A stretch of 64,000 nucleotides of DNA from a virus: positions 56,485 to 120,484 of IMG/VR virus record IMGVR_UViG_3300026097_000013; one strand, written 5' to 3'. The stretch's first letter is position 1. Each line of letters starts with the position of its first letter. The translations under genes were made by a program, and so were the position numbers. The notes below the pieces were generated by a model, which searched no databases, was not told where the DNA came from, and was given only the letters and a program-made list of their open reading frames with translations. Below, in pieces: positions 36,785 through 59,100 of this stretch.

Positions 36785-37249
36785 TTATGTGTTGGATTGT
36801 TTTGCCTGGATGTGATGTTCTAGCAATGCCTGTTTGAGTTTGTCAGACCCGCCTACTCTAACATTGATAATACCATTGTAGTATTCATCTGTTTCAAGTA
36901 CTCTACGATCAAACTGTTCTCGTGCCTCTATGTAGGACATTTCGCCTCTACCTTTACATAGGTATAATATTTCTCTTGTAAACTTGTCTTCGCCTAGTGC
37001 TGCTACATCTGCGTTTAGCCTGTCACTGGATCCCCAGTAAGTGCGCCAATCGCTTTCTTTATAGCCTCGTCTTTTGTTTTTCTTGCCTTTTAGAGGTGGC
37101 TTAGTAGTTTTAAATTTTGCTAGTTTCTTGCCTATGTATTTTTGGCCTGTAGTGGTATTGGTGATAAGATAAACAAAGCCTTCATACTCGTCTGGTATTG
37201 TGTCAATTGTTTCACCTCGGTAAGTCCACTGCATGAACTTACTTACCAA
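36785..37249 (-). CDS. GIY-YIG-like nuclease-domain protein
   Basis: 154 residues. FVYLITN (25-31) and QKYIGKKL (about 37-44) form a GIY-YIG-type nuclease core, followed by a conserved Lys/Arg-rich loop (KGKKNKRRGYKESDWRTYWG) and EAREQFDRRVL. No NUMOD-type DNA-binding tail is present, unlike the other GIY-YIG gene in this window. A conserved small nuclease of this kind is common next to recombination genes in marine T4-like phages. It is last in the gp47-gp46 operon. The TTG start at 37249 has a weak ribosome site; an ATG at 37232-37234 (MQWTYRGE) is an alternative. Confidence 0.68.
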   Translation of the reverse strand: MVSKFMQWTYRGETIDTIPDEYEGFVYLITNTTTGQKYIGKKLAKFKTTKPPLKGKKNKRRGYKESDWRTYWGSSDRLNADVAALGEDKFTREILYLCKGRGEMSYIEAREQFDRRVLETDEYYNGIINVRVGGSDKLKQALLEHHIQAKQSNT

Positions 37250-41233: not shown

Positions 41234-41959
41234 ATGAGTGTAGACCTTGGATCTCAAATAAGAATGGCACAAAATGCACTACAAAGCATTAATAGTGGAG
41301 CAAGACCACCTACAGCTGAACGTTCTGTTGCAACCGTTAGTAATGCAACCGCAGATGATGCTTCAATAGACTGGCGTGTTTCATTGTCTGTACCAAATGA
41401 ATTTCAATCTAGTCCTATTTTAACACCTTTTGGAAATACCGACAATAAAATGATATTTCCTTTTAATCCTCAAGTACTTTTAGGGCATACTGCAAACTAT
41501 AATTTGATAGATCCTACTCACAATAATTTTCCTTATCATGCATATCAAAATAGCCAAGTTGATAATATTACACTAACAGGCGAATTTTTTACAGAAAATC
41601 AAGAAGATGCAAAGTATTGGATTGCCTGTGTACATTTTTTAAGAAGTGCAACTAAAATGTTTTATGGTGAAGGCAATGATCCTCAAGGTAATCCTCCTAT
41701 TATTAGTAGATTGAATGGATACGGTAAACATGTTTTAAACAACATTCCGGTTGTAATTACAAACTTTACAACTGATATATCAAATGATGTTGACTACATT
41801 GAATGCGAAGTCGGCAATGGCGAAGTAAATTATGTTCCAACACAAAGTGTTATAACGGTAACCTGCGCACCAAATTATGCTAGACGTCAACAAGCAAGAT
41901 TTAGTCTTAACAAATATGTAAACGGAGAATTTATTGGCGGACCGGAGGGCTTTGTATAA
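41234..41959 (+). CDS. Baseplate tail-tube cap protein (gp48-like candidate)
   Basis: 241 residues. NKMIFPFNPQVLLGHTANYN and AKYWIACVHFLRSATKMFYG are conserved landmarks that I associate with the protein annotated as gp48 in marine T4-like phages, where it precedes gp53. T4 gp48 caps the central hub and starts the tail tube. By fold it may be a tail-tube/LysM-baseplate relative; gp54 is the main alternative. ATAGGA precedes the ATG, and the stop overlaps the gp53 start (TAATG). It opens the plus-strand baseplate operon. Confidence 0.55.
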   Translation: MSVDLGSQIRMAQNALQSINSGARPPTAERSVATVSNATADDASIDWRVSLSVPNEFQSSPILTPFGNTDNKMIFPFNPQVLLGHTANYNLIDPTHNNFPYHAYQNSQVDNITLTGEFFTENQEDAKYWIACVHFLRSATKMFYGEGNDPQGNPPIISRLNGYGKHVLNNIPVVITNFTTDISNDVDYIECEVGNGEVNYVPTQSVITVTCAPNYARRQQARFSLNKYVNGEFIGGPEGFV

Positions 41960-42267
41960 TGGCATTACCTAAATATAAACAGACTAGTGTATATTCAAAT
42001 ACAAAAATAAACAAATCGGGTTATTTAGATTTTTTTAAACCTAATAGTGTACCGATTGCAAGAAACGATGTTAGATATGAAATAACAACTGCTTATACAT
42101 ATAGACCTGATCTGCTCGCACATGACTTATATGGTACTAAAGATCTTTGGTGGGTATTTGCACAACGCAATCCTGAAGTTTTAAAAGATCCTATATTTGA
42201 TTTTGTTGCAGGAACAACAATTTTTCTTCCACAGCGATCTTTAATGCAGGACACAATGGGATTATAA
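41959..42267 (+). CDS. 53: Baseplate wedge subunit gp53
   Basis: 102 residues. RPDLLAHDLYGTKDLWWVFA, EVLKDPIFDFVAGTTIFLP and the closing QRSLMQDTMGL correspond to the conserved core of gp53, which also resembles LysM-type baseplate proteins. It is about half the length of T4 gp53 (196), as in other marine relatives. It joins wedges to the hub. The start overlaps the previous stop and the next gene starts directly after its stop. Confidence 0.85.
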   Translation: MALPKYKQTSVYSNTKINKSGYLDFFKPNSVPIARNDVRYEITTAYTYRPDLLAHDLYGTKDLWWVFAQRNPEVLKDPIFDFVAGTTIFLPQRSLMQDTMGL

Positions 42268-45200
42268 ATGTTTAATCTAGGAAATATCAGTAGAACTATT
42301 AACTCAGGATTCAGTCAGTTAAACACTATTACATCAAATGTTAATAGTTTTTCTTCTAATCTAAACACTGCAATAAACAGTAATCTTTCGGGAGTCACTT
42401 CTCAAATTAATCAGTTCACCGGCGGATTAACATCTCAAATTGATCAGTTCACTGGCGGATTAACATCTCAAGTAAACAATCTGACCGGTCAATTTCAAAA
42501 TCAGATCAATTATTTAATTCCTGGATTTAATAATGCATCATTTCCGTTGCCTAGTCCAATCTCTCAATTAAAACAACAATTAAATGGAGTTACACAAGGA
42601 CTAAACAACTCATTAGATCAAGCATTGGGCGGAATTAATGGTCAATTTGATCAAGCTTTTGGTGATATTACTGGTTCATTAACTGGAAAATTAAACGATG
42701 CAATATATAATGTTGATCAACTTACCGGAAGCCTTAATGCAAATCAATTATTACAACCGTTAAATCAAAATCTAGAAAATTTAACCAATCAAATAGATGC
42801 ATTTGGTGATAGTATTACTGATCAAATAGGATCGATATCGGGATCAGTACAACAGGATTTTAATAGTGCATTATCTGGAGCAACAGATAAAATAACCAAT
42901 GTGTTAAATTCTAATATAACTAGTGCTGTTTCTAATATAACTGATCAGCTAGACGCATTTGGCGGTCTTGGATCAGAAATTGAAAATGTATTAGATGCAG
43001 GAATATCAAATGTTGAAGCAACACCTAATAACATTATTAGTGTATTGGGAGGAGATGCGCAAGATATTTTGTCAAGCGCAGGCTCAATAATGTCAACTAC
43101 ACTAGGAACATTTTTTGGAGAAAATGGATTTACAGGGCTAGAACAATTCTTAAATAATCTAGGTAATACAGATATAATTTCAGGCGACGATGCTCTATTT
43201 TCGCAACCAGTAGGAAACGGAAACCAACGTCAAGAAAATCTACTTAGAGAATATAATACTTATAATTATATTATTACTCTTGGTATACTCGGTGTCGACG
43301 AATATAACAATCCTTCTACTTACAGAGAAAGGGGCGGGTTTACTAAAATAATTTTAAAAAGCGGTGGCGGCAGTCTTGACATTAGACAGCAAGTTGCTGA
43401 AGAAGGCAATGATCATGCAGAATATTTTATTGAAGATCTTTTTATAGATAGTGTTATTACTCCTAATTCTAATACAGGTGTTGCGTCCGGAACAACTATA
43501 AGCTTTAAGGTGTTAGAGCCTTATTCAATGGGAAACTTTATACAAGCTATTATTGCTGCTGCGGCTGAAAAAAATTATCAAAACTATGTTGATGCTCCGT
43601 TCTGTCTTAAGATAGAGTTTACCGGATGGAATCAGTATGGTGATACTGCACTTACAAATCGTGTTCCACCTAAATTTATTCCTATTAAATTTACAAAAAT
43701 AGATTTTAATGTTTCTTCCGGCGGGTCTGTTTATCAAGTTGAAGCTGTTCCGATGAGTGAAACAGGACTAGAAGATGGTGTTGCAAATGTAAGAACAACT
43801 ATTAATGTTAATGGAGCCTTTGTTCATGAAATGCTGTTAACATCAAACAATAGTGTAACACAAGCATATAACGATCATATTGCTTCTCTTGAAGACACTG
43901 GGATACTTGCATCTCATGATCGAGTTCTTGTAGTTTTTCCTAAAAACAATAGATCTGTGCTAGAAGCAGTAGAACAGGGTAATGGCCCTACAGACACAGT
44001 AACTGGTGCAGAACAATTAGGAATTGACAGAGGTTCGCAAATACCTAATGCAGACCAAAGTGAAGAACTACAACCAGATGACCCTGATACAATACCGTCT
44101 AATGAATCAACTCCTGAACGAGTAAGACCTAAAGGACAAATATTTACAAGGCTTGAAGGCTGGGCAACTAATACCGAAAATATGAATGAAATTGGTACTA
44201 GTCAGCTAGTTGAAGATCCCAATGCTGCTGGCGATCAAACACAAACTGACCAAGTAGATAGTCACGATGCAACAACTGATGTGCATAACAGAGGAACTGT
44301 TGAAAATAGTGTTAGTGAAACTTCAAGAAGCTTAGACAATGCTCAAAATGAAAATATTTTAAGATTGATCGATCGAGTGGTTTTATCTAGTCAATGGGCT
44401 CGAGAAAAAGTTGATGAAGAAACAGGCCCTACAGGTGTAAGAAATTGGTTTAAAGTTGAGACTAGAGTATTTCTTGAAACTGATCCAGAAGCTGAAATTA
44501 AAAATGGACGTCCGCCTAGATACTATGTTTACGAAGTGTTACCTTATTTTCCTGACGAAGCTAAGTTTTTATCAAACAACGAAAGGCCTAGAGGAACACT
44601 AGCACTAATGGCTGCTGCTCCTAAAGAATACAATTATATCTATACTGGTAAAAATGAAGACATAATTGATTTTGATATAAACTTTAATAATGCATTTATG
44701 CAAACTGCATTTTCTGACTTTGGTACAAATAATGGCGGAATTGCATCAACATTATCAGATAGTGTTAGGTCGCACTTTCAACCCGCAGGTGCAACACGAA
44801 CCAATAGAAATCAAGGCGGAACAAATGAAACTGGTGGAGCAAACTCACTTGCATCAAACGTTAATGCTGAAGGCGGAGCACTTAGATCAGGCGATATTCG
44901 ACAACAAATTGCTCATATGTTCCATCAAAGATTATTACATCAAACCGTAGACATGGTTACTGCTGAAATGAAAATTTGGGGAGATCCTTTTTATATTCCG
45001 CAACTAACAGGAAACTGGGCACCACCACCGTCGAGTAATCCTATGGTAGCACAAGACGGTAGTATGAATTACGGTACTCACGAAATTTTTGTACTATTTA
45101 ACTTTCAAAATCCAGTCGATCAGCAAAAAACTGGACCCTATTATGATTTTCCACAAATTGTAAGAGGTTTTAGTGGATTGTTTAGTGTCAGAGCAGTAGA

Positions 45201-45558
45201 AAATCATTTTAATGACGGAAAGTTTACACAAACGCTAAAATTAATTAGACGCTTTGGTCAAGACGACGATGAAACAACAAACAACAAACCGTTTGTTGAA
45301 ACAGCAGCAGAACAAATTAGAGAAAATTTAACTGGTGATGCACAAACCGACAGAGCAACTGCACTTAGTGCAACCGGTAATAATTCGAATGTAGGATATG
45401 AAGCAGGACAAGTCGACCCAGGCTTAGCTGCTGCCGCTGCACTAGCAAGAGCACAAAGCACTACTACTACAGCAGGTGATGATGTAGTATTTTCACAACC
45501 TGTTGTTCCAGCTACTAGTATAAACACTGGAGGTCCTGGATTTAGACCAGGAGATTAA
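42268..45558 (+). CDS. Large baseplate hub/virion structural protein
   Basis: 1096 residues. Residues 1-300 are low-complexity Gln/Asn/Gly repeats of coiled-coil type, including NQFTGGLTSQIDQFTGGLTS. A folded core starts at YNTYNYIITLGILGVDEYNN and includes GGGSLDIRQQVAEEGNDHAE and ISFKVLEPYSMGNFIQAIIA, which looks like the hub protein (gp27-type) of marine T4-like phages, although I cannot prove homology. The C-terminus is flexible, with GQVDPGLAAAAALA and GDDVVFSQPVVPATS, motifs repeated in the next gene. A third GDDALFSQPVG sits just before the core. It lies between gp53 and gp5, the expected hub place. Confidence 0.62.
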   Translation: MFNLGNISRTINSGFSQLNTITSNVNSFSSNLNTAINSNLSGVTSQINQFTGGLTSQIDQFTGGLTSQVNNLTGQFQNQINYLIPGFNNASFPLPSPISQLKQQLNGVTQGLNNSLDQALGGINGQFDQAFGDITGSLTGKLNDAIYNVDQLTGSLNANQLLQPLNQNLENLTNQIDAFGDSITDQIGSISGSVQQDFNSALSGATDKITNVLNSNITSAVSNITDQLDAFGGLGSEIENVLDAGISNVEATPNNIISVLGGDAQDILSSAGSIMSTTLGTFFGENGFTGLEQFLNNLGNTDIISGDDALFSQPVGNGNQRQENLLREYNTYNYIITLGILGVDEYNNPSTYRERGGFTKIILKSGGGSLDIRQQVAEEGNDHAEYFIEDLFIDSVITPNSNTGVASGTTISFKVLEPYSMGNFIQAIIAAAAEKNYQNYVDAPFCLKIEFTGWNQYGDTALTNRVPPKFIPIKFTKIDFNVSSGGSVYQVEAVPMSETGLEDGVANVRTTINVNGAFVHEMLLTSNNSVTQAYNDHIASLEDTGILASHDRVLVVFPKNNRSVLEAVEQGNGPTDTVTGAEQLGIDRGSQIPNADQSEELQPDDPDTIPSNESTPERVRPKGQIFTRLEGWATNTENMNEIGTSQLVEDPNAAGDQTQTDQVDSHDATTDVHNRGTVENSVSETSRSLDNAQNENILRLIDRVVLSSQWAREKVDEETGPTGVRNWFKVETRVFLETDPEAEIKNGRPPRYYVYEVLPYFPDEAKFLSNNERPRGTLALMAAAPKEYNYIYTGKNEDIIDFDINFNNAFMQTAFSDFGTNNGGIASTLSDSVRSHFQPAGATRTNRNQGGTNETGGANSLASNVNAEGGALRSGDIRQQIAHMFHQRLLHQTVDMVTAEMKIWGDPFYIPQLTGNWAPPPSSNPMVAQDGSMNYGTHEIFVLFNFQNPVDQQKTGPYYDFPQIVRGFSGLFSVRAVENHFNDGKFTQTLKLIRRFGQDDDETTNNKPFVETAAEQIRENLTGDAQTDRATALSATGNNSNVGYEAGQVDPGLAAAAALARAQSTTTTAGDDVVFSQPVVPATSINTGGPGFRPGD

Positions 45559-45567
45559 GGAAAACAT

Positions 45568-46635
45568 ATGCCGTATCAAGATTTAGATAGCCCAGAAGAA
45601 AATAGTGCAGGCAATATTAATACACCTAGATCTAGTGATCCTAGAGATGAACGATCTAATATTAATGTTAACCTTCCTAGTAATAAAAATCTAAGTTCTG
45701 TAGTTTCACCTACCGCAGTGTCAAAGTCAAGAGTCACTGGCAGTAGTGAAGGATTAAATCCTGTTAGAGGCGAAACAGAATCTGCATATCTTAATAGACA
45801 GCGTCAAACTACTGGAAATCAAAATTTACAATTAAGTATCGATGCAATTAATCGTGTAATTTCTGGTAGAGAACATGTATGGGATGGAAACAATTTTGTA
45901 GATGTTAATAGTGCTACACTTGATCCACGCGGCAGAAATCAAATACCAAGTCAACAAATTCCGCCAACTGAGTTACCAGATCAGCCAGCTGAGCAATCAA
46001 TGACTGCTTCGTCGAATATTGGATATGGTGCAGGACAAATAGATCCTGCCTTAGCGCAAGCAGCTAAGATTCAAGGTGTAGATGTGGGTTTTGGAGAAGG
46101 TCAAGTAGATCCTGCATTAGCAAAAGCAGCAGGACTAATAGACGGACCAGTTCCTATTTCATCACCGTCTAGTACAGAATTAGGAAATATTAATGCACCA
46201 ACTACACCTGCCGGCGGCAGTAGCGGCGGAGGCGGCACAAGTTCGAGAAGTGCTCCGTCGGGTGTTGCTACTCCTACTAGTTTTAATGATAGATATGACT
46301 TTTTAACTAGACAAAAAGTACGTGAAGGAAAGCATGGAGGACAAGGCGGCGGTGCTGGCACAAGCCAGCCATGCGGAGTAGCACCCGGTGCAAGCGGTGG
46401 AGGGTCTAATGGCACAGGCAGTGGTCAATCTGTCCCACCGGCTACAACGTCAACAACAGCAGGTGATGATGTATTATTTTCACAACCAGTAGTTCCAGCT
46501 ACAACGTCAACAACAGCAGGTGATGATGTATTATTTTCACAACCAGTAAATTCAAAGCCTTTGCCTAGACCTGAAACCCAACAAAATAATGACGCAGGTA
46601 TATCTTCAAATCCGTTTGGATCTAATTTTGCTTAG
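45568..46635 (+). CDS. Disordered hub-associated protein with peptide repeats
   Basis: 355 residues, mostly low-complexity Ser/Thr/Gly/Pro and probably unfolded. It has one helical stretch (QLSIDAINRVISGREHVWDG) and a short one around FNDRYDFLTRQKVREGKHGG. GYGAGQIDPALAQAAK and GFGEGQVDPALAKAAG repeat a motif of the upstream hub protein, and TAGDDVLFSQPV occurs twice at the C-terminus. AAGGAAAACAT precedes the ATG. Position between hub and gp5 suggests a baseplate linker or chaperone. No family recognised. Confidence 0.65.
   Translation: MPYQDLDSPEENSAGNINTPRSSDPRDERSNINVNLPSNKNLSSVVSPTAVSKSRVTGSSEGLNPVRGETESAYLNRQRQTTGNQNLQLSIDAINRVISGREHVWDGNNFVDVNSATLDPRGRNQIPSQQIPPTELPDQPAEQSMTASSNIGYGAGQIDPALAQAAKIQGVDVGFGEGQVDPALAKAAGLIDGPVPISSPSSTELGNINAPTTPAGGSSGGGGTSSRSAPSGVATPTSFNDRYDFLTRQKVREGKHGGQGGGAGTSQPCGVAPGASGGGSNGTGSGQSVPPATTSTTAGDDVLFSQPVVPATTSTTAGDDVLFSQPVNSKPLPRPETQQNNDAGISSNPFGSNFA
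46441..46548 (+). repeat. 57-base tandem repeat, two copies
   Basis: 46441-46497 and 46498-46548 are identical over 51 bases and encode ATTSTTAGDDVLFSQPV twice. It is an in-frame coding duplication. Confidence 0.92.
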
Positions 46636-46666: not shown

Positions 46667-49102
46667 ATGGCAAGCTCATCGTATACAAGAACACCTATGT
46701 ATGGTACAAAAATAAGAGACGGAGGCCCTTATGAAGCTATCGTAGTGAACCACTTAGATGTTAAGTATATGGGAACACTAGAAGTTGAAATTCTTCGTTA
46801 TACCGGCGCTGGACAAACTCCCGAACGCAGCGGTCAGCTAATAAATGTAAAATATCTTTCTCCGTTTTACGGTGTTACTCCTACAGCAGGATTAACAGCT
46901 ACAGACGGTTATGCTAATACACAAAAAAGCTATGGTTTTTGGGCAGTGCCTCCTGATATAGGAACTAAGGTACTGGTAGTATTTGCTGAAGGAAATCCAA
47001 ACTATGGATACTGGATTGGTTGTGTTCAAGACGAATACATGAATTTTATGTTGCCAGACGGCAGAGCAGCAACTACAAAAACAACTGATATTACTCCAGG
47101 AAATTTAAAGGGTGCAAAACTTCCTGTAGGCGAATACAATAAAAAGTTTGAAGACAGCGGCGAAGTAGATCCTACACTTTTCCTAAAACCTTACAATAAT
47201 GATTTTACACAAGTTTTAGAAATACAAGGTTTAGTTTTTGATGAATCTAGAGGAACAACAACTTCTAGTGCTAGACGAGACATACCTAGTATGGTTTTTG
47301 GAATGAGTACTCCTGGACCTTTAGATAAGCGTCCTGGTGCTCCTAGAGTTGATTTAGGCGCCATTGGTTCAAAAGCTAACCTAGCATACAACAGACTGGG
47401 CGGACATTCGATTGTAATGGACGACGGAGATGATAAATTTGTAAGAGACACACCTGCTGAACTAGGCCCCCCGATCTATAAAAATAGAGAAGCTGGTGAT
47501 TTATCGGGCGATGTTACAATTCCGCAAAATGAACTATTTAGAATTCGTACTAGAACAGGTCATCAAATATTGCTTCATAATTCAGAAGACTTAATCTATA
47601 TAGGCAATAGTCGAGGAACTGCCTGGTTAGAAATGTCTAGTGACGGAAAAATAGATATTCATGCACAAGATAGTGTTAGTATTATGACTGACAATGATCT
47701 CAATATTACTGCTGAACGTGATATTAATATGGAAGCTGGTAGAAACATTAATATGAAAGCTAGTGCAAGATATAGCGAATATGAAGAAACTGATTCTAAA
47801 GGAAACGAAAGCGGCAGAATACAATTTGAATCAGCATACAACTATAATCTGTTGGTAGGTAAAACTGGTAAAATCTTAGTTGGATGTGATTATCATACCA
47901 AAGTTGCACGTAATCAATTTAACACCACAGGCGAATATCATCACATAAGAAGTGGTAAAGACAATAGGTTAACAGCTGGCGCATATACTCATATACTTTC
48001 AGGAAAAGAACATAGAGAAACTGCGGTTTATATTCATATGAACGGTCCCGCCGCTTCACCAGCTGTATTAGCACAAGATGTTATACAATTAGAAACACTA
48101 AATTTACCATATGTATTTCCGAGTATTCCTACACCGGTTGCATATCCAACAATTGTTCCTAGAGCACCTCAACACGAACCTTGGCCGCATCACGAAAATA
48201 TGGATCCTTTGACCTTTAAAAAGGATCAAACTGATAGAGAATCTCCGGGTGGATTAAATGCAGCAGATAGAATTCTTACTCCAGACACATTCTTAAAAAA
48301 CAAAGAAGGACAACAATCTAGTCAATCAGTCCCAGGCAGCGGCGGCGGAATTTCGTCAGGATTTAACAATAGCGGCGGAAGCGCCCCAGGCGGCGGCGCA
48401 GCAACAGGAACAGGACGACCTGGTAATCCAGATGCGACACCTGAAACAAGTGATTTTTCTTTTTCTGGAGATGGCAGACTAGGTGCGTTATCAGAAAGAT
48501 ACGAGTCTCGTGGCGATCCAACTATTATCGGCAATGATCGTACAGGCGGTCCAAGTTATGGTACATATCAAATTGCTACTAGAACAGGTACATTTAATGA
48601 CTACATGAATTATCTCCAGCAAAACGATCCAGCAGTATACCAAGAATTGCAATCTGCAGGCGGTGCCCAGGCAGCTAGACAAGGCACAGCAGCATTTAGA
48701 AATAAATGGCAACAGGTTATGTCTAATCCGCAGGCAGCAGAAACTCAACATCAGTTTATTCAAGCAACACATTATGATCCTGCGGCACGTAGAATTGCAA
48801 ATTCTACAGGAATTAATATTAGTACTAGAAGTAAAACACTAAATGACGTAGTATGGTCTACTTCTGTTCACCAAGGCGCCGGCGGCGCAAATACAGTATT
48901 TCGCCGAGCATTAGAAAGAACAGGTTCTAGTAATCCCTCAGATGAAGCTCTTATTAATGCAATATACGCAGAACGCGGTGCAGAAAATGGTATGCGATAT
49001 TTTCCAAGTAGTACACCAAATGTAAGACAAAGTGTTGTTAATAGATTTAGAAACGAAAATGCTGATGCACTTGCTTCGTTACGTCAAGAGCAGTCAGGAT
49101 AA
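46667..49102 (+). CDS. 5: Baseplate hub spike with C-terminal lysozyme-like domain (gp5)
   Basis: 811 residues. The N-terminal OB-fold begins YGTKIRDGGPYEAIVVNHLD and continues to GTKVLVVFAEGNPNYGYWIG. The middle has HQILLHNSEDLIYIGNSRG and short beta repeats (SDGKIDIHAQDSVSIM, ERDINMEAGRNINMKA) that form the trimeric beta-helix spike. After a Gly/Ser linker, residues 605-811 hold LSERYESRGDP, GGPSYGTYQIATRTG and VVWSTSVHQGAGGANTVF, a peptidoglycan-hydrolase domain with a goose-lysozyme/SLT-style catalytic Glu in YESRGDP. In T4 the lysozyme domain is of a different type and lies between OB-fold and spike. It pierces the envelope and opens the cell wall. Confidence 0.82.
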   Translation: MASSSYTRTPMYGTKIRDGGPYEAIVVNHLDVKYMGTLEVEILRYTGAGQTPERSGQLINVKYLSPFYGVTPTAGLTATDGYANTQKSYGFWAVPPDIGTKVLVVFAEGNPNYGYWIGCVQDEYMNFMLPDGRAATTKTTDITPGNLKGAKLPVGEYNKKFEDSGEVDPTLFLKPYNNDFTQVLEIQGLVFDESRGTTTSSARRDIPSMVFGMSTPGPLDKRPGAPRVDLGAIGSKANLAYNRLGGHSIVMDDGDDKFVRDTPAELGPPIYKNREAGDLSGDVTIPQNELFRIRTRTGHQILLHNSEDLIYIGNSRGTAWLEMSSDGKIDIHAQDSVSIMTDNDLNITAERDINMEAGRNINMKASARYSEYEETDSKGNESGRIQFESAYNYNLLVGKTGKILVGCDYHTKVARNQFNTTGEYHHIRSGKDNRLTAGAYTHILSGKEHRETAVYIHMNGPAASPAVLAQDVIQLETLNLPYVFPSIPTPVAYPTIVPRAPQHEPWPHHENMDPLTFKKDQTDRESPGGLNAADRILTPDTFLKNKEGQQSSQSVPGSGGGISSGFNNSGGSAPGGGAATGTGRPGNPDATPETSDFSFSGDGRLGALSERYESRGDPTIIGNDRTGGPSYGTYQIATRTGTFNDYMNYLQQNDPAVYQELQSAGGAQAARQGTAAFRNKWQQVMSNPQAAETQHQFIQATHYDPAARRIANSTGINISTRSKTLNDVVWSTSVHQGAGGANTVFRRALERTGSSNPSDEALINAIYAERGAENGMRYFPSSTPNVRQSVVNRFRNENADALASLRQEQSG

Positions 49103-56100: not shown

Positions 56101-59100
56101 AAACAATAAACAACTAAAGCATGGACTAGATTATAATTTTGATAATCAAGGCTTTGTGAGTATCAATGCAGGACAACAAGTAAATGATATAATTACAATT
56201 TATGAATACGAAAGTACTGACGGATCTTATGTTGCACCTACACCAACTAAACTAGGATTGTTTCCTAAATACGAACCTCAATTATTAATTGACGACACTT
56301 ACCAAACAAGTGAACCAATTACTACAGGCCCATTTAAGATATACGGTGAAGTTGCAGAAGGATTTTTCCGTGCAGGAACTAGAGGTTGGTTCTATCCTGT
56401 GTTCACTTCAGAAGCAGCAGCACAGGAATATGCAGAGCAGCAAGGCTTACAAGAAACAACTTCACATACTCATCAGTTTTTAGGACTCAATAGAGTACTT
56501 TATATGCCGAACATTGGCAGCACACACGGTGGCCAAGATAATCCAAGTTTTGATACATACCCAGTTGGCATTCCTATGATCAAAGGCCACGACGGAAGTT
56601 ATGTTAGAGCGTATCTTGATTATCGAGATGAATTGTTAATTGAATTAGAAAATCGTATTTTTAATAATATTAAAATTGATTACGACATTAATAAAATTGA
56701 TATTAAAACATTCGAAGGTGGTGAATTTAGAAATAGTTTATTTACTAGAGAAGAAATTAATAATACCTTACTAGGTGATTTTACAGAATGGTTACAATTA
56801 GTAGATAACGATTATACAGATAATTTCTTTTATCTAAGACAAAATGAATTTACATTTAATTACGGATCTTTTAGTAGCCCGACTGGTAAATCGTTAGCAG
56901 GTTTTTGGAGAGGTATATACAATTATATCTATGACACAGATACTCCTCACACAACTCCTTGGGAAATGTTAGGGTTTGCGATTAAACCAGATTGGTGGAA
57001 CAAGACGTATGGTCCTGCACCATACACTAGAGAAAATAATATTTTATGGAAAGATCTAGAAGAAGGTGTAGTCCGCAGACCTAATCAGCCTATAGAATAT
57101 AGACCAAATTATTCCCGTCCTAATCTGCGTAACTTTATTCCTGTTGATAGCCAAGGACGATTGAAAGCACCACTTGCTGCTGGTGTAGTTAATGGGTTTG
57201 TACTTCGCCAAGCTTCTGATAATTTTACATTCGGAGATCAATCTCCTGTAGAAGCTGCATGGAGAAGAAGTTCTGAATATCCATTTGCAATTATTACATC
57301 TTATTTGCTTAACAATCCTGCTAAGGCACTTGGATTAGGTTTTGATTTAAGTAGAATAGAAAGAAATTTAGCAGGTCAGTGGAGTTATACTGAAACACAA
57401 AAACCGTTGCAACTTAATAATGTTTTATTACCAAATACATATCAAAGTTCACAAAGAATACAGACTTCAGGCTTTGTAAACTACATTTATAATCTAATTT
57501 CAAGTGATATATTATCAGTGTATAACGAATATGTTGATGATATATCAAGAATTACAAATCAATTAGGATTTAAATTAGGCGGCTTTACTGATAAACAAAA
57601 AATTAATTTGTTATTAGATTCTAAGTCACCTCAGCAAGTTCAAACTGATGGCGGAATTTTTGTACCACAAGAAAATTATAAGGTATTTTTAAATACTAGT
57701 TCTCCTATTGATATTATTACTTACTCCGGTATTGTTATTGAAAAAATATCTTCAGGGTTTGTAATTAGAGGATACAATCAAAATGACCCTGTTTTCAAAT
57801 ATTACGATTACATTAGCAGCTCTAAAACTATTCCAGTTACTGTCGGCGGGATTTCCGAAGCAACAACACCGTGGGAATCAGGCAAGCGTTATGAAAAGGG
57901 CACGGTAGTAGAGAATAACAATTCTTATTATAGAGTTGTAACTACTTTTACAGCCGGTGAGCAATTTGATACAGAAAATTTAGCCAAACTTCCAGGACTT
58001 CCTACATTAGGCGGCAAAACTGCATTGTTCCGTAGAAATTTTGACAAAAGACAAATTAAACTTTTATCATACGGCTCTAAACTAAACACTAGTCAAGAAG
58101 TAGTTGATTTTATTTTGGGTTATGGTGAATATTTAAAAGCCCAAGGTTTTACTTTTGATAATGTCGAAGTTGACGGATCGGTTGAAAATTGGGATAAATC
58201 TGCTAGAGAATTCCTATTTTGGACAACACAAGGTTGGGCAAGCGGCACGGTTCTAAGTATTTCACCGAGTGCCGGTAAGTTAGAATTTGATCCGATTTAT
58301 AGCGTAGTAGACGATTTATCAGATCCGTTCTATCCTTATAGTATACTCAAATCAAATGGTGATCCATTAGATGTATCATTTAGGACAATGTTAAGAGATG
58401 GAAATAGTTTCGGCATCCAAACAGCAGTCAATAATGACCAAGAAGGATTGTATAACGTTTCATTACCTTTGGTACAAAAAGAGCACGTAGTGCTTTTAGA
58501 TAATAGTACTATCTTTAATGATGTCATTTATAAACCAGAAACTGGTTATAGACAAGAACGTTTAAAAGTTCTGGGATATAGATCAGATGAATGGGAAGGT
58601 GGTTTAAACATTCCTGGATTTGTTTACGATGATGCAAAGGTTGTTGATTGGGAAACATGGGAAGATTATACAATTGGTAGTATTGTTAAATTTAAACAAT
58701 TTTATTATGTTGCTACTAAAAACGTTACTGGCGCAGCAGAGTTCGATCCAACTGGCTGGTATCGTCTTAGCGAAAAACCTGAATCAGAATTAGTTACTAA
58801 CTTTGATTATAGAATTAATCAATTTGCAGATTTTTATGATTTAGATACTGCTGGGTTTGATGAAGAGCTACAAAAAATGGCTCAACATTTAACTGCATAT
58901 CAAAAAAGAGATTATCTAGCAAATATTATTAATGATGATGTAAGTCAATATAAATTCTATCAAGGATTTATACAAGACAAAGGTACAAAAAACGCTTTAG
59001 ATAAACTCTTTAAAAAACTAAGCAGTGCAAACAAAGAAAGTCTAGAATTTTATGAAGAGTGGGCATTACAAGTTGGTCGTTATGGCGCAACTGACAATAT

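Follow-up and report, generated by a model that had tools for sequence, protein, structure and literature searches.

The shared cassettes and the genes that carry them

Why do two neighbouring tail genes of an uncultured phage carry the same short peptides? The question is raised by the window, by which we mean the whole stretch of 64,000 nucleotides analyzed here (positions 56,485 to 120,484 of IMG/VR record IMGVR_UViG_3300026097_000013), where the initial annotation had pointed at two motifs shared by a 1096-residue hub protein and a 355-residue protein and had proposed that they dock on a common partner. The genes concerned are the following:

41234..41959, + strand: gp48-like virion protein (phrog_12050), context gene
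41959..42267, + strand: gp53-like baseplate wedge, context gene
42268..45558, + strand: gp27-like baseplate hub protein, 1096 aa (phrog_11190, E 3.6e-24; Foldseek)
45568..46635, + strand: middle protein (MID), 355 aa, mostly disordered, a conserved neighbour of the hub gene
46667..49102, + strand: gp5-like spike with a C-terminal VgrG3-like lytic domain (phrog_13211, PF21277)

The 1096-residue protein is a gp27-like baseplate hub. Judged from the pLDDT profile of an AlphaFold2 model built with 46 relatives, it consists of a helical N-terminal tail (residues ~1-320), a folded core (~320-1012) and a disordered C-terminus (1015-1096), and the fold of the core resembles T4 gp27 (1k28 chain D), Mu gp44 and VgrG with a Foldseek probability of 1.00, albeit with modest TM-scores. 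The gene order gp53, hub, MID, gp5, gp25 provides the gp5-like spike and the baseplate neighbours that accompany gp27-like hubs. The likeness to T4 gp27 and Mu gp44 is found in the structure of the folded core and in the adjoining gp5-like gene, whereas the window hub differs by its long cassette-bearing tails, helical at the N-terminus and disordered at the C-terminus, and by the DRYDF middle gene that comes after it. Among isolates the closest one found was Pseudomonas phage PA5oct (28% across part of the hub core); its hub has 674 aa, and gp5 follows directly without a middle gene.

We defined cassette A as GDDxxFSQPV and cassette B as GYxxGQxDPxLAxA. Together with members of two further cassette families (C and D, see below) and the DRYDF anchor they are located as follows:

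42943..42972, + strand: cassette C-like, DQLDAFGGLG, hub residue 226; family recognised among relatives
43183..43212, + strand: cassette A copy 1, GDDALFSQPV, hub residues 306-315, ahead of the folded core
45391..45435, + strand: cassette B of the hub tail, VGYEAGQVDPGLAAA, hub residues 1042-1056; helix predicted at 1051-1061
45475..45504, + strand: cassette A copy 2, GDDVVFSQPV, hub residues 1070-1079, in the disordered C-terminus
45922..45948, + strand: cassette D, DPRGRNQIP, MID residues 119-127; also in MIDs of relatives and in the hub of one relative
46018..46062, + strand: cassette B copy 1 of MID, IGYGAGQIDPALAQA, residues 151-165; helix predicted at 158-168
46084..46128, + strand: cassette B copy 2 of MID, VGFGEGQVDPALAKA, residues 173-187; helix predicted at 182-187
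46288..46320, + strand: DRYDF anchor of MID, residues 241-251; beta-hairpin predicted, pLDDT about 88
46441..46548, + strand: perfect 57-bp tandem duplication with both MID A cassettes
46462-46491 and 46519-46548, + strand: MID A copies, GDDVLFSQPV, residues 299-308 and 318-327

The placement given by the initial annotation was correct: two A copies and one B copy reside in the hub, two copies of each in MID, and the pLDDT profile agrees that one hub A copy precedes the folded core and the other lies in the C-terminus. Copy 1 lies inside residues 300-319, modelled with pLDDT below 50, and copy 2 in a tail that is disordered except for a helix across B; neither A copy is confidently placed on the hub core by AlphaFold2. 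Matches were scored with fixed-seed PSSMs, as iterated PSSMs drifted to unrelated conserved sites, and every A or B match scored above the maximum of shuffled proteins (10 shuffles per protein), showing that the matches are not due to chance. When 3 mismatches were allowed for A and 4 for B, no further copies were found in ORFs of at least 60 aa across the 120-kb genome, and the gp5-like spike carries neither cassette by the same scan.

The two A copies of MID form a perfect 57-bp tandem duplication and therefore count as one independent occurrence, and over 69 nt the DNA of the MID A cassettes is 81% alike with that of the hub tail. The internal hub A copy differs from the other hub copy by five synonymous and two non-synonymous codons, and the B copies of the window phage look old.

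Origin of the middle gene

The initial annotation had also suggested that the 355-aa gene could be a detached and amplified hub tail acting as a competitor or assembly regulator of the hub. As an origin of the gene as a whole this did not hold. A gene is found between hub and gp5 in all 46 nonredundant relatives (47 loci with the twin of the window), and among the 47 MIDs, which range from 224 to 847 aa, only M1 and RYDF are invariant columns. Since MID thus has a positional orthologue with its own invariant anchor in every relative, an origin as a detached hub tail was rejected; in addition, the MIDs of loci L004 and L007 carry an endolysin-family (muramidase-like) domain. The model of the window MID has low confidence overall (mean pLDDT 53) with a confident DRYDF hairpin. 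A family search with the window MID gave no match, and tblastn with this protein and a typical relative MID gave nothing among 50,697 isolate phages.

For the A cassettes, the idea of an amplified tail fared better. The hub tail is the nearest sequence to the MID A segment, and among the 47 loci A is present in the hub tails of some relatives, whereas all the other MIDs lack it. Together with the 81% match this makes it probable that the A piece of MID is hub-derived, the simplest history compatible with the sequences being a copy taken from the hub tail that was later duplicated in tandem. As an account of the middle gene and its function, the detached tail nevertheless appears very improbable to us.

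Cassette A is lineage-specific. Its pattern was matched in three IMG/VR contigs, and A or weaker forms of it occur within a longer conserved stretch in the hub tails of L004, L011, L013 and L026. Of the 47 hub loci approximately 90% lack A and about as many lack B, often with other cassettes there instead, and consequently no single cassette is essential. Measured against the condition named in the initial annotation, absence of the motifs from relatives, the outcome is mixed: this frequent absence weighs against the docking idea, while the recurrence of the peptides in some relatives with hubs only 32-41% identical weighs in its favour. One of the relatives is an Octadecabacter virus, which is among the things that suggest a probable aquatic origin of these phages.

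Cassette B recurs in dissimilar virion proteins

A search for the motifs in other phage hub proteins, as proposed in the initial annotation, gave very different results for the two cassettes. In contrast to the lineage-specific A, B was common to hubs and many other virion proteins: its pattern was found in at least 119 IMG/VR stretches and, among the matches listed, inside an ORF at 117 of 118 loci. A residue-reversed pattern of equal composition and information gave 0 matches in the same IMG/VR collection, and the B pattern itself gave 0 matches in the 84,980 genomes of bacteria and archaea searched (257 Gb). A tblastn search with a 26-aa B peptide found nothing in the 50,697 isolate phages, which for such a short query is weak evidence. 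In the PDB no usable match was found for the B peptide or for profiles made from MIDs and from proteins that carry B. The literature searched had nothing relevant on the peptide or on disordered baseplate tails, the core string GQVDP occurring there in a single, unrelated paper.

The carriers of B fall into at least 25 strict protein clusters. Those with an annotation are hubs (phrog_11190), tube caps (phrog_230), gp5 proteins (phrog_430/694) and a tail protein (phrog_350); one further carrier matches a DNA-ejection protein, and others adjoin ejection-protein, portal or terminase genes. Among annotated cases the cassettes are restricted to genes of the virion axis, a statement that concerns roughly half of the B carriers, as the other proteins with B match no family. 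The position of the cassette is not fixed: in hubs B may be N-terminal, C-terminal or within an internal loop, while in the gp5 cluster it is always at 115-124 between the OB and lysozyme domains. Judged from this spread, B is a portable peptide in otherwise dissimilar phage proteins.

The fixed residues of B are set by the search pattern, but conservation extends to positions outside it, where V or I precedes B in 71 of 80 and G follows it in 45 of 80 of the matches listed. The flanks of B are less hydrophobic than the remainder of the carrier proteins (p=4e-8). Among the 92 distinct instances in the matches listed, third codon positions are close to free and synonymous entropy is high, and since the invariant residues use all their codons, selection acts on the peptide. 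The cassettes are short conserved peptides in disordered tails, in agreement with the initial annotation; their residues are kept while synonymous codons drift, and B extends to many unrelated virion proteins, as would be expected of docking peptides.

These data bear on the idea of a mobile DNA element that inserted in frame, like the Rickettsia palindromic elements. Repeated in-frame insertion in different genes is what such an element would produce, but close to free third positions in so many distinct instances and the absence of B from the 84,980 cellular genomes searched both speak against it, and we consider it hardly credible. An element of the Rickettsia type in particular was rejected, as identity of the repeats at the DNA level is lacking and synonymous entropy is high even at invariant residues.

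Another explanation is that the cassettes are mere spacers, i.e. low-complexity linker modules that recombination has spread between neighbouring disordered regions. They do reside in regions rich in Gly, Ser, Thr and Pro, their copy number varies with frequent absence, and both the perfect 57-bp duplication and the DNA similarity between hub and MID fit this view. A spacer would be expected to drift, however, whereas the B residues are kept in at least 25 clusters with varying synonymous codons and unrelated flanks, and the reversed peptide, which has the same composition, gave no match in IMG/VR. We therefore regard the spacer explanation as rather unlikely.

Matching of cassettes between hub and MID

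Four more cassettes, E (YDDAILRQAR), C (DPLDAFGGAG), D (DPRGRxQ) and F (GRGNGAAE), behave alike within hub and MID. Cassette E, for which 0 matches were found in cellular genomes, is also present on a gp48-like protein (at the N-terminus of the L231 homologue), at either end of hubs and at gp5 C-termini, and in L230 both hub and gp5 terminate in E.

Hub and MID carry matching cassettes in several phages. B occurs in all three genes, hub, MID and gp5, of L109/L146 and in both hub and MID of L143/L178, twice in each protein in the case of L143. The two tandem B copies of the window MID align to those of the L143 MID at 67% across 42 aa, despite hubs that are only 32% identical, and their position relative to DRYDF is flipped, the pair standing before the anchor in one of the two MIDs and after it in the other. 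In 49 nonredundant pairs, with no correction for phylogeny, sharing between hub and MID exceeded expectation, with 3/6 versus 1/43 for B (odds ratio 42, p=0.004) and 7/10 versus 10/39 for C (p=0.013). These p-values need caution, as an earlier co-occurrence test of A-F with stricter patterns on 47 loci was not significant and significance for B and C arose after pattern-positive loci and looser patterns were added; local copying between neighbouring genes is likewise uncorrected in the association test.

Matching cassettes could also arise if they bind each other and in this way stitch hub, MID and spike together without any further partner. The presence of the same cassette in neighbouring hub-module genes and the partly helical prediction for B fit such an interlock, and gp27 and gp5, the homologues of hub and spike, are oligomers. 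Most B loci, however, have one copy in one gene among the matches listed (B is in more than one gene at 6 of 118 loci, each spanning only ~6 kb to either side). There is then no second protein for the cassette to bind, and the interlock becomes improbable.

Docking peptides as the preferred reading

The reading towards which we lean, with some reserve, is that A and B are portable docking peptides in disordered parts of central-axis tail proteins. The cassettes resemble linear motifs in being short, independent of position, embedded in disordered sequence (pLDDT below 50 for the A copies) and conserved as peptide and not as DNA. A docking tag that can be reused is suggested by the near-unchanged state of B in at least 25 dissimilar protein groups, of which many belong to the cell-piercing tail tip or have DNA-ejection genes as neighbours. 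Two observations weigh against this reading, namely that B is confined to one gene at most of the loci listed and that AlphaFold2 gives neither A copy a confident place on the hub core. The proposed mechanism would involve a set of 10-16-residue peptides in disordered tails, loops and linkers, carried by the tube cap, the gp27-like hub, the DRYDF middle protein, the gp5 spike and some podovirus-type ejection proteins. Each copy would bind the same kind of surface, with several copies providing avidity, and the reason that hub and MID share a cassette may be a common partner, one that holds them or that they recruit while the hub is assembled or DNA is ejected.

One may go further and suppose an exchangeable docking code, by which unrelated phages with different tail types would put one and the same peptide, most commonly B, on whichever protein leads the way into the cell, and so recruit one widely available partner for genome delivery. 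The spread of B from hubs to genes next to podovirus ejection proteins makes it attractive to think of one partner shared across tail types, for which a factor of the host envelope or a universal surface of the virion would be candidates, but as a whole we consider the code speculative and unlikely. If B docks both in contractile-tail hubs and in podovirus-type ejection proteins, it would represent a common interaction, not described so far, by which uncultured phages deliver their genomes, and the near-fixed 15-residue B sequence could be used directly as bait.

Comparison with known systems

Mosaicism at the domain and sub-domain level has been described, with fragments shared by unrelated phage proteins including those of the baseplate, where shared fragments were counted only from 50 aa (Smug et al. 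2023, PMC10684548). The cassettes differ from such fragments in being 10-16 aa long, unfolded and present in several places within one protein, and if the docking reading is true, the exchange of pieces between phage proteins reaches far below this threshold. In the podovirus ejection proteins T7 gp14/15/16, tape-like residues stitch the disordered arms, and the partners swap lytic domains (PMC8954989). The present system is similar in that lytic domains are found in MID or gp5 and that B lies within or beside ejection-type genes, but here the carriers are mainly contractile-tail hub proteins.

Phage Ig-like domains are optional, portable modules on diverse virion proteins, and they are folded, surface-exposed and ~80-100 aa long. 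The cassettes are likewise optional, portable and found on diverse virion proteins, but with 10-16 aa in a disordered or short helical state they are not Ig-like domains.

Lytic domains and further cassettes in the tail-axis proteins

A lytic domain was found in the middle protein, encoded between the hub and gp5 genes, of two loci related to that of the window:

L004, 8673-9719: middle protein, phrog_90 endolysin-like
L007, 8802-11345: middle protein, phrog_90 endolysin-like

Unlike these two proteins, the 355-residue middle protein of the window showed no lytic domain in domain and family searches, while the C-terminus of the window's gp5 spike protein (46667-49102) is a VgrG3-like lytic domain. 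This difference in placement looks like domain swapping between partners.

Residues 1-300 of the 1096-residue hub protein form a long amphipathic helical N-terminal region, to which tape-measure and apolipoprotein profiles gave weak matches in profile searches, and its coding sequence contains 33-nt repeats (42391-42489) encoding the peptide GGLTSQINQFT. At the other end of a hub relative (L127, 4524-7802), the C-terminal tail carries four copies of the GYxxGQxDPxLAxA cassette. An additional cassette, GDGxRGxST, is present in the hub, middle protein and gp5 of a single phage (L031), and the cassette DQT[IV]DY[TS]D is common to the middle proteins of L020 and L069 and the start of a gene lying upstream of the hub (L020, 3258).

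Elsewhere in the window, an ORF on the minus strand (36785-37249), which from its sequence reads like a GIY-YIG endonuclease, is flanked by putative recombination genes.
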